Part shown: positions 17,055 through 20,275 of the stretch, piece after piece | How positions within the stretch are numbered: the first letter of the stretch is position 1 | Layout of the letters: each line of letters opens with the position of its first letter | From: an uncultured Clostridia bacterium | Lineage (GTDB): Bacteria > Bacillota > Clostridia > Oscillospirales > Acutalibacteraceae | Assembly: GCA_946407065.1 (NCBI GenBank) | Contig: CAMJMQ010000001.1 | Location: 62,001 to 126,000 of the forward strand | DNA: 64,000 nucleotides | Reading direction: 5' to 3' | Notes under the pieces: model-generated | Database searches by the model: none | Told to the model about the DNA's origin: nothing | The model's input: the letters and a program-made list of their open reading frames with translations, nothing else | Made by a program: the position numbers and the translations under genes

Positions 17055-18930
17055 GAACAAGACTCCCTCCACCGAAAAGGTATACATCAAAAAGCAGCGC
17101 GAGGCGCTGATCGGTATCGACAGCAAGCGTCCGCAGGCGAGAAAGGGCATGGGCGGCCCCCGCGGCGTCGTCACCGAAAAATCGGATAACTTCGGCGCAT
17201 CCTGGAAGAAGCTGCTCGACTATGCCAAGCCCCAGATGCCCGCGATCATCGTCGCGATGACCTGCGCCGTCATCGGCACCATCATCTCGCTGATCGGCCC
17301 CAAGCAGATCCAGAAAATCACCGACCTGATCACACAGGGCATCACCGGCACCATCGACCTCGACGCGGTGACCTCCACCAGCGTCTTCCTGATGATCCTG
17401 TACGGGATCAGCTGGCTGATGAACTTCGTCCAGCACTTCATCATGGCGACCGTCGCGCCGACCGTGAGCAGCCGCATGCGCACGGACATCACCAACAAGA
17501 CCAACCGTCTGCCGCTGCGATACTTCGACTCCACCCCGTTCGGCGACATCCTCAGCCGTATCACCAACGATATTGACACCATCGAGCGCACGCTGAACCT
17601 CAGTATCGCGCAGTTCATCACCTCGATCGCGCTGTTCTTCGGCTCGGCACTGATGATGTTCCTCACCAACTGGATCATGGCGCTGACCGCGATCTTCGCG
17701 TCCTTCCTCGGCTTCTTTATGATGTCCGCCATCATGAAGAAGTCCCAGCTCCACTTCAACCGCCAGCAGCGCCACCTCGGCGCGATCAACGGTCATGTTG
17801 AAGAGATCTACGCGGGTCACAACATCGTCAAGGCGTATAACTATGAGAAGGACAGCAAAGAGGAATTCAGCCGCATCAACCGCCATCTGCGCGACAGCGT
17901 GTTCAAGTCCACGGCGCTCTCCGGCGTGATGCAGCCGCTGATGACCTTCATCGGTAACCTCGGCTTTGTCGCGGTATTCGTCGTGGGCACCCTGCTCGCG
18001 AAGAACGAGGTCATCACCTTCGGCGTCATCATCGAATTCACCATCTATGTCCGCCTGTTCACCCAGCCGCTCCAGCAGCTGGCACAGAGCTTCTCGAGCA
18101 TGCAGAGTACCGCCGCGGCGGCTGACCGCGTGTTCGAATACCTCGGCGAGGAAGAGCTCCCCGACGAGAGCAAGAAGACCCGCCGCCTCGACAGCGTCAA
18201 GGGTAATGTGCGCTTTGAGCATGTGCGCTTCGGCTACAACCCCGACAAAATCATCATCAACGACTTTTCCGTCGACATCAAGGCGGGGCAAAAGGTGGCG
18301 ATCGTCGGCCCGACCGGCGCGGGCAAAACTACCATCGTCAACCTGCTGATGCGCTTCTATGAGCTCAACTCCGGACGTATCTACATCGACGACGTCCCCA
18401 TCGACGAGCTCACGAGAGAGAACGTGCACGAGCTGTTCTGCATGGTATTGCAGGACACATGGCTATTTGAGGGCACGGTACGCGAGAACCTCGCCTACAG
18501 CAAAGAGGGCGTGACGGATGAACAGCTCGAGCGCGCGTGTAAGGCGGTCGGCATCCACCACTTTATCCACACTCTCCCCCACGGCTATGACACCGTACTG
18601 GATGATAAGGCGAGCCTGTCGGCAGGACAAAAGCAGCAGCTGACTATCGCGCGCGCGATGATCGAGAACGCGCCCCTGCTGATCCTCGACGAGGCGACCT
18701 CGTCCGTCGACACCCGTACCGAACGCATCATCCAAAAGGCGATGGACGGCTTGACCGAGGGCAGAACGAGCTTTGTCATCGCTCACCGCCTGTCCACGAT
18801 CAAGAATTCCGATCTGATCCTCGTCCTCAAGGACGGCGACATCATCGGCGCGGGCACCCACGAAGAACTGCTCGCCGAGGGAGACTTCTACGCCGACCTG
18901 TACAACAGCCAGTTTGAGCAAAGCGCGTAA
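17047..18930 (+). CDS. ABC exporter half-transporter (TMD-NBD), canonical catalytic Glu
   Basis: VGPTGAGKTTIVNL, LSAGQKQQ, LLILDEATSSVD; 8 bp overlap with the preceding gene. Confidence 0.92.
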   Translation: MSENKTPSTEKVYIKKQREALIGIDSKRPQARKGMGGPRGVVTEKSDNFGASWKKLLDYAKPQMPAIIVAMTCAVIGTIISLIGPKQIQKITDLITQGITGTIDLDAVTSTSVFLMILYGISWLMNFVQHFIMATVAPTVSSRMRTDITNKTNRLPLRYFDSTPFGDILSRITNDIDTIERTLNLSIAQFITSIALFFGSALMMFLTNWIMALTAIFASFLGFFMMSAIMKKSQLHFNRQQRHLGAINGHVEEIYAGHNIVKAYNYEKDSKEEFSRINRHLRDSVFKSTALSGVMQPLMTFIGNLGFVAVFVVGTLLAKNEVITFGVIIEFTIYVRLFTQPLQQLAQSFSSMQSTAAAADRVFEYLGEEELPDESKKTRRLDSVKGNVRFEHVRFGYNPDKIIINDFSVDIKAGQKVAIVGPTGAGKTTIVNLLMRFYELNSGRIYIDDVPIDELTRENVHELFCMVLQDTWLFEGTVRENLAYSKEGVTDEQLERACKAVGIHHFIHTLPHGYDTVLDDKASLSAGQKQQLTIARAMIENAPLLILDEATSSVDTRTERIIQKAMDGLTEGRTSFVIAHRLSTIKNSDLILVLKDGDIIGAGTHEELLAEGDFYADLYNSQFEQSA

Positions 18931-19055
18931 GCGCTTTGCAACGATGTTTCGCTTTGCGAAGTGAAGGGACTGCGTTGTGATGTTCGCCGCGTTGCGGCGA
19001 GTGAAGTTTGCCTTACGGCACGTAATCGGCGGGCTTTGCCCGCACCCATTGATAA
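18921..19055. repeat. Run of small variable hairpins separated by short GTGAAG/GATGT linkers
   Basis: TTCGCTTTGCGAA-GTGAAG..., TCGCCGCGTTGCGGCGA-GTGAAG, TTTGCCTTACGGCA, CGGGCTTTGCCCG. Confidence 0.55.
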
Positions 19056-19076
19056 ATAGTAAAGAGGTTCCATTGT

Positions 19077-19655
19077 ATGAATATTTGTGTATACGGCGCG
19101 TCGAGCAAGACCATTGACGCGCAATTCACCGACGCGGGTCACGCACTCGGCTATCTGCTTGCCAAGCACGGATACGGACTGGTATTCGGCGGCGGCGATA
19201 ACGGCATGATGGGCGCTGTCGCGCGCGGTACCCATGACGGCGGCGGCAGGATCATCGGCATCGCACCACGCTTCTTTAACGTCGACGGCGTTCTGTATCC
19301 GCACTGTGACGAGCTGATCTACACCGAGACCATGCGCGAGCGCAAGCAAAGGATGGAGGATCTGAGCGGCGCGTTCATCGTATCGCCCGGCGGCATCGGC
19401 ACGTTTGAGGAGTTCTTTGAGATTTTGACCCTCAAACAGCTCGGCAGAACCAAAAAGCCGCTGGTCATCCTCAACACCGCGGGCTATTATGACGATATGC
19501 TCAACATGATGCGCCGCACGGTCGAGAGCAATTTCATATCCGCACAGACCTTCGATTTGATCGCAGTCGTCAATACCCCCGAGCAGGCGATCGATTACAT
19601 CGAGCATTATGTCGAGCAGGAGGTCGACGTCGAAGAACTGCGCAAGCTGAAATGA
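19077..19655 (+). CDS. LOG-family (TIGR00730-type) nucleoside 5-monophosphate phosphoribohydrolase-like protein
   Basis: VFGGGDNGMMGAVARG and SPGGIGTFEEFFEILTLKQLG motifs. Confidence 0.9.
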   Translation: MNICVYGASSKTIDAQFTDAGHALGYLLAKHGYGLVFGGGDNGMMGAVARGTHDGGGRIIGIAPRFFNVDGVLYPHCDELIYTETMRERKQRMEDLSGAFIVSPGGIGTFEEFFEILTLKQLGRTKKPLVILNTAGYYDDMLNMMRRTVESNFISAQTFDLIAVVNTPEQAIDYIEHYVEQEVDVEELRKLK

Positions 19656-20236
19656 CAACAAAAGAACGCCCCGTCAGGAAACAGATCCGCATGCCGGAAT
19701 TCAGTTATTCAGAGAATCGGATTTATTTCATCACTATCTGTTCAAAAGACAAAAAGCAAACGTTTGGCAGAGTTGTAGGGTACGGCGCTTGCGACGTACC
19801 GAAGGTAGCGCTCTCCGCATATGGGAACACAATCGAGAAAACCATACATTTGATGGATAACAAATACAATAATGTTTTCATCGATCATTATGTTATTATG
19901 CCAAACCATGTACATATGTTGATCGCAGTCAGCCCGCCACCTGAAACAGAACGTGATAAAACCGCAAGGGTATCCTATTTCGGTACGTCGCAAGCGCCGT
20001 ACCCTACGGAGAATAACGATCTCAAAATCACGCTGTGCGGTAACGGTGACAGAGCAAATGAAATCATCCCAAAATTCATCTCATTATTCAAAAGATACTG
20101 CAATCACGAGATTGGATATAATATCTGGCAAAGACGGTACTATGACCACGTGATTCGGAGTTACCGAGAATACGAAAACGCATACCGCTACATCGACAAC
20201 AATCCAGCTCACTGGGCGGAGGATGAATACTACTGA
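19652..20236 (+). CDS. REP-associated tyrosine transposase (RAYT/Y1_Tnp, HUH)
   Basis: IYFITICSKDKKQTFG, VIMPNHVHMLIAV (HUH), RRYYDHVIRS...EYENAYRYIDNNPAHW; 4 bp overlap with the LOG gene. Confidence 0.88.
   Translation: MTTKERPVRKQIRMPEFSYSENRIYFITICSKDKKQTFGRVVGYGACDVPKVALSAYGNTIEKTIHLMDNKYNNVFIDHYVIMPNHVHMLIAVSPPPETERDKTARVSYFGTSQAPYPTENNDLKITLCGNGDRANEIIPKFISLFKRYCNHEIGYNIWQRRYYDHVIRSYREYENAYRYIDNNPAHWAEDEYY
19775..20007. repeat. Perfect 27 bp inverted repeat pair inside the RAYT coding sequence
   Basis: GTAGGGTACGGCGCTTGCGACGTACCG at 19775-19801; exact reverse complement at 19981-20007. Confidence 0.9.
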
Positions 20237-20243
20237 CATAACA

Positions 20244-20275
20244 AAACGACCCGACTTGCGTCAGGTCGTTTTTCT
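20244..20275 (+). terminator. Terminator after the RAYT gene
   Basis: AAAACGACCCGACTTGCGTCAGGTCGTTTTT. Confidence 0.7.

Follow-up and report, generated by a model that had tools for sequence, protein, structure and literature searches.

Why should a transposase gene carry, within its own reading frame, an exact inverted pair of the palindromes with which such enzymes are associated? This question is raised by a 64,000-nucleotide stretch of DNA from a gut bacterium, an uncultured member of the Clostridia (the whole stretch is referred to as the window), in which a gene for a REP-associated tyrosine transposase (RAYT, also named TnpAREP; REP, repetitive extragenic palindromic element) contains two inverted copies of one REP, one on each side of the HUH motif codons. 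We found that the same REP is scattered over the host genome and that most related genes examined carry other REPs at the same two sites, matched within a gene and usually changed together. We consider it likely that the inverted pair represents REPs cognate to the RAYT itself, which are inserted in frame where the protein has two loops, and that the gene is a self-contained unit of enzyme and substrate whose two arms are usually renewed together. The features on which the argument is built are as follows.

19652..20236, forward strand: RAYT (TnpAREP) coding sequence, 194 aa, from the list of open reading frames (ORFs) and from profile and structure matches
19775..19803, forward strand: arm A, an in-frame REP with its GTAG foot at 19775-19778 and the hairpin GGTACG...CGTACC; encodes VGYGACDVPK
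19907..19915, forward strand: HUH motif codons H86-V87-H88, between both arms, from the sequence and alignments A1 and A2
19979..20007, reverse strand: arm B, the same REP, its foot read on the forward strand as CTAC at 20004-20007; encodes FGTSQAPYPT
20189..20191, forward strand: candidate catalytic tyrosine Y180 of the YIDNNP motif, assigned by motif as in PMC6006769

A sequence-only reading of this DNA had reported a perfect inverted pair of 27 bp at 19775-19801 (forward) and 19981-20007 (reverse), with both arms translated as part of the RAYT. The pair was borne out with zero mismatches, and its true length is 29 bp (19775-19803 and 19979-20007, 175 nucleotides [nt] apart); both arms are in frame in the ORF at 19652-20236 and yield the peptides listed above. 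Each arm alone folds as a hairpin, GTAG-GGTACG...CGTACC, with a DNA minimum free energy of -7.9 kcal/mol. Since the literature defines a REP as a hairpin with a GTAG foot outside the stem (PMC3733652, PMC8266576), each arm is a complete REP. Nowhere else in the 64-kb window does the 27-mer recur when up to 3 mismatches are allowed, and the expectation from dinucleotide shuffles was 0.00, which rules out chance or low complexity as the origin of the pair. An assembly artefact was ruled out as well, given that G016, an independent genome, has the same pair and many other genomes have analogous ones.

The assignment of the gene as a RAYT was supported by several lines of evidence. The 194-aa product was matched by the NCBIfam profile NF047646 (REP_Tyr_transpos) with an E value of 5.4e-12 and 45.8 bits, short of the curated cut-off of 80, and a Pfam search gave no match at 0.001; the in-gene inserts make the loops of the RAYT longer. 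By sequence, the sole PDB match was 4ER8, a TnpAREP bound to a REP hairpin, and the same structure was the best PDB fold match (E value, 2.8e-6) of an AlphaFold model with a predicted local distance difference test score (pLDDT) of 83, followed by the transposases of IS608 and ISDra2. H86-V87-H88 is conserved in the homologue alignments A1 (10 proteins) and A2 (63 proteins), in both of which Y180 is invariant; the protein thereby combines an HUH motif with a single tyrosine, as in the Y1 fold, and by motif these residues are the candidate catalytic ones. In the model, arm A corresponds to residues 42 to 51, a loop between strands 39-42 and 51-54, and arm B to residues 110 to 119, a loop of low confidence that follows the HUH strand and precedes the long helix 135-154.

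If the pair is cognate to the enzyme, copies of the REP would be expected elsewhere in the genome, and a search for them had been proposed with the original observation. Copies were counted by pattern searches, and 59 genomes, including that of the window (G000), were compared for the window REP. Such REPs proved abundant, with 22 copies in the window's own genome at ≤3 mismatches, spread over many contigs, all having the same palindrome and all of those in the aligned list having the GTAG foot. G016, the only other genome among the 59 with an orthologous RAYT (94% at the amino acid level), was also the sole other genome in which the window REP is multicopy (32 copies), and the other 57 genomes yielded three matches in total, in just two genomes and with two mismatches each. 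A second RAYT of the window's genome (C4:126046-126504; L025, L028) carries a different in-gene pair, GTAGGGCGGGGGCTTGCTCCCGCCG, which has 49 copies in the genome, several of them forming inverted pairs about 100 bp apart and one tandem row lying at C6:81013-81336. This second RAYT stops right after the tyrosine (YTNFQ) and is shorter than its homologues, though its REP outnumbers the window REP.

Three further in-gene REPs were searched in 30 genomes, with reversed patterns as controls. Hosts with the carrier RAYT contained 19, 9, 24, and 4 copies of the first, 88, 16, 28, and 35 copies of the second, and 24 and 10 copies of the third. All ten sampled carrier genomes thus held 4 to 88 copies of their own in-gene REP, the controls gave 0, and the in-gene REP was multicopy in its host in 12 of 12 genome/REP combinations tested. 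At two loci of the window's genome, L007 (C11:46042) and L010 (C16:59016), a window-type REP lies inverted about 60 bp from a sister REP with a different loop (GGTACGGCATTTATGACGTACC), indicating that REP pairs in the genome can be asymmetric, whereas the in-gene pair is symmetric. Separately, a paralogous RAYT gene, L024 (G000:C4:49221-49694), was seen to carry a mixed pair in which the REP types differ between the arms (A, GACGACCATCGGTCGTCC; B, GCGAGCATTGCTCGTCC).

The sequence-only reading had also proposed that homologues be compared for in-frame insertions at these positions. We read 131 homologous ORFs, obtained from a scan of genome contigs and from searches of relatives and of the order, and found a GTAG hairpin at both sites in 97, at one site only in 19, and at neither site in 15 (a biased sample, as weighed below). 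The first arm begins with GTAGGG about 40 to 45 codons before the HUH motif, and the second follows the motif in reversed orientation; perfect arms of 20 to 32 bp flank HUH in 46 of the 131 ORFs, and those of at least 16 bp in 63. Arm A, with GTAG on the coding strand, precedes the HUH codons by about 42 to 45 codons, and arm B, with GTAG on the template strand, comes after them. The case held to speak against the idea, namely homologues conserving the peptides without REP-like DNA, was not what we saw: most homologues encode different peptides from different, equally well-formed REPs. Arm sequences vary widely between genes and match within a gene, with a mean match score of 20.7 within versus 8.9 between genes, where the largest of 2000 permutation means was 10.1. 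After shuffling of synonymous codons, which keeps every peptide, the score fell to 8.5, and control windows gave 7.0. These data indicated that the match of the arm DNA is not a by-product of the peptides.

The picture differs outside this group. Other clades of a phylum-wide sample had site B as their only REP-bearing site, had a REP on the sense strand at that site, or lacked REPs. Two RAYTs of other clades, L228 (G697:C14) and L220 (G555:C114), carry such sense-strand REPs at site B, and in L228 the loop is enlarged by repetitive peptides into a 359-aa open frame. Five plasmid records were also fetched, three of which contained an ORF passing the screen. Both arms are present in the gene from Monoglobus (Clostridia), and the genes from Chloroflexota and Bacteroidota have none. 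The Monoglobus gene (L236; Monoglobus pectinilyticus, NZ_OY725736.1, filed as a plasmid) is located directly between two genes for site-specific DNA-methyltransferases, and similar peptides are repeated upstream of it in the same frame.

How the two arms change relative to each other was followed on a tree of homologues from which the arm columns were omitted (135 columns, 105 rows). Close relatives on this tree often differ in REP at both arms. Half of the forks were unresolved, so disjoint nearest pairs were used instead of deep branching. Both arms had changed in 29 of the 38 pairs, one arm in 5, and none in 4, the figure of 29 being slightly too high since uneven trimming of the arms inflates the distances in a few pairs. 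The match within a gene exceeded the cross match in 23 of the 38 pairs, was worse in 0, and was tied in 15 (p = 2.4e-7); the pairs with uneven trimming are ties, so the 23-to-0 result is unaffected. Between the window gene and L057 (69% amino acid identity), a stem pair has changed from T-A to G-C in both arms, amounting to four coordinated nucleotides, and there are only 5 differences in 54 arm nt versus 153 in 524 nt elsewhere. Against the orthologue of G016, 48 of 555 nt differ, none of them among the 58 nt of the arms (P = 0.004, or 0.016 when only third positions are counted). In the 47 genes that have both hairpins and unequal arms, the differences comprise 24 compensatory stem pairs and otherwise fall mostly in the loop or tail, with few true stem breaks. 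Unequal arms thus mostly retain their own palindromes, so what is kept or exchanged as a unit seems to be the REP hairpin and not a long-range stem.

Several points weigh against a cognate, co-renewed pair. The proportion of 97 in 131 is not an unbiased frequency, as the homologues were chosen as the best matches to a profile that already held paired members, and the homologues with one site (19) or none (15) show that some RAYTs do without the pair. A single arm had changed in 5 of the 38 sister pairs. Finally, a few to about 16 copies of a REP also occur in some genomes without a matching RAYT among the loci fetched; these genomes often have several RAYTs, and the copies plausibly derive from RAYTs outside the sample.

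The main alternative, possible but in our view doubtful, is that REPs are neutral parasites that land in insert-tolerant loops because RAYT acts near its own gene, in which case the match would reflect recent insertion from the genome-wide pool. Other coding sequences are known to contain REPs and Rickettsia palindromic elements (RPEs) (PMC3733652), the loops encoded by the arms are not part of the model's core secondary structure, and presence of the pair is variable on the tree (20 changes on 105 rows). Random insertion, however, predicts varied sites, frames, and orientations, whereas in many genera the REPs occupy the same pair of codon positions in the same orientation, and sister genes renew their arms together.

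An explanation that we regard as improbable places the constraint on the 29-bp arms as a long-range stem, which would enclose the HUH codons in one long fold of the mRNA or the single-stranded gene and thereby restrict transposase expression (autoregulation). Such a stem would be strong if formed, with -54.2 kcal/mol for the single-stranded segment and a z score of -8.4 versus shuffles, and the perfect arms of at least 20 bp in 46 of 131 homologues fit it. Nevertheless, arm differences in the 47 genes mostly keep each arm's own palindrome rather than arm-to-arm pairing, which weakens the stem as the main constraint, and the GTAG foot and the multicopy genome REPs would be left unexplained. That the protein needs the peptides VG......P and ...PT, the DNA palindromes being a by-product, is very hard to credit and was ruled out by the synonymous shuffling. 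In its favor, VG and PT recur, being encoded by GTAGGG and CCCTAC, and certain genes that lack a perfect pair still have a PT ahead of the long helix; against it, the residues between VG and P are highly variable.

We return to the reading of the pair as cognate REPs, for which the surroundings of the gene are informative.

19077..19655, forward strand: upstream gene, whose PGGIGTFEE motif marks it as a LOG-like Rossmann protein; intact in relatives without a RAYT at the site
19659..20219, forward strand: segment of 561 bp, nearly the whole RAYT ORF, missing from the nearest relative G016, which joins 19658 to 20220
20243..20272, forward strand: terminator-like inverted repeat 3' of the RAYT, also in G016 at the empty site

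The start ATG of the RAYT overlaps the stop codon of the upstream gene (ATGA), and the empty site in G016 is flanked by the same upstream gene and the same downstream HAD-like gene. RAYT is also missing at this site in G034 and G022, which favors a gain in the lineage of the window, with gain followed by loss in G016 as a possible alternative. Inspection of the empty-site junction revealed no GTAG and no clear target duplication; the junction (G016:C62 near 145475, AAAGGATATATATACCGACATAAC) resembles the 3' end of RAYT genes and is perhaps a deletion scar. At another locus, G016 carries a window-type RAYT (L029, C39:5477-6046) where the window's genome has the different RAYT L024. The two genes share about 17 first and about 16 last codons and have flanks about 90% identical, and their bodies differ, as if the body of a RAYT gene had been exchanged between two neighboring species.

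Flanking REPs were ruled out as the normal arrangement. The window gene has no flanking copy of its REP in the window at ≤3 mismatches, and a REP matching the in-gene arm occurs within 500 bp of the ORF in just 11 of the 97 homologues, though the density of matching REPs near the ORF exceeds that far from it (0.12 versus 0.02 per kb). Upstream of the LOG-like gene, the intergenic region at 18930-19060 contains GC-rich repeats of the GCGTTGCGGCGAGTGAAG type, which look like another small repeat family.

The distribution of cognate REPs, together with published studies of other RAYTs, suggests how such a gene might work and leads us to infer that the window RAYT would recognize its in-gene REP. 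The RAYTs of E. coli and S. maltophilia cut single-stranded REP and do not cut the reversed REP (PMC8266576); by analogy, each single strand of the gene would offer exactly one usable REP, and the gene strand, when single stranded, for example at a replication fork, may present it to the enzyme. A REP inside the ORF would travel wherever the ORF goes, and flanking REPs would be unneeded. As stem and loop turn over in evolution, both arms would usually be renewed together and so stay matched to the REP population of the genome. Renewal probably proceeds by REP exchange or conversion through strand cleavage and transfer by RAYT, or by recombination between gene copies. A bolder proposal, which we put forward tentatively and as rather unlikely, is that the RAYT gene is the replicator of the REP system in this clade: the in-gene pair would serve as a reference copy, strand cleavage and transfer would seed genome REPs and rewrite both arms, enzyme, pair, and REPs would change specificity together, and the ORF would move without flanking ends.

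The closest known system is TnpAREP subclass 2.4 of Quentin et al. 2018 (PMC6006769), which is described as having in-frame REPs in its tnpAREP genes, generally between HuH and Tyr. Its motifs NH[IFV]H, WQ, and YIxNNP correspond to NHVH, IWQ, and YIDNNP here, its listed length of 194 aa equals that of the window RAYT, and its REPs, with a 5' GT[AG]G, likewise lie in frame, within a variable region remote from the active site. The window gene thus has both the motifs and the in-frame REPs of the subclass, which, unlike this gene, is described mainly from Cyanobacteria and Bacteroidetes. We found no description of a matched inverted partner before HUH or of arm co-change in the literature text covered, a supplementary figure and most subscription papers lying outside that coverage. 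In-frame REPs in RAYT genes are therefore already known, and the two-site, matched, co-changing pair looks new within the same limits.

Other systems share single elements of this arrangement. REPINs and BIMEs also consist of two inverse REPs with a spacer (PMC8266576), but they are mostly intergenic, whereas the window pair is contained in the RAYT coding sequence, with the HUH core encoded by the spacer. In a REPtron, a RAYT flanked by REPs (PMC3733652, PMC6006769), the RAYT is also physically linked to its cognate REP, yet the linkage here is intragenic. RPEs (cited in PMC3733652) are palindromic repeats read in frame in functional genes, but these genes are unrelated, and CGTC-tagged repeats are reported to lack a dedicated transposase (PMC3733652). 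The window REP, in contrast, has a GTAG foot and is hosted by a gene whose product is the enzyme that likely processes it.

Taken together, the above-described results bear on the spread of REPs and on what keeps a RAYT paired with a single REP sequence. That such RAYT ORFs change places, as the empty site and the exchanged gene body show, is unexpected, since RAYTs are usually described as not copying themselves. With the enzyme and its likely substrate in one DNA, and dozens of natural variants of the matched pair, this family offers a ready-made table of enzyme/REP specificities.
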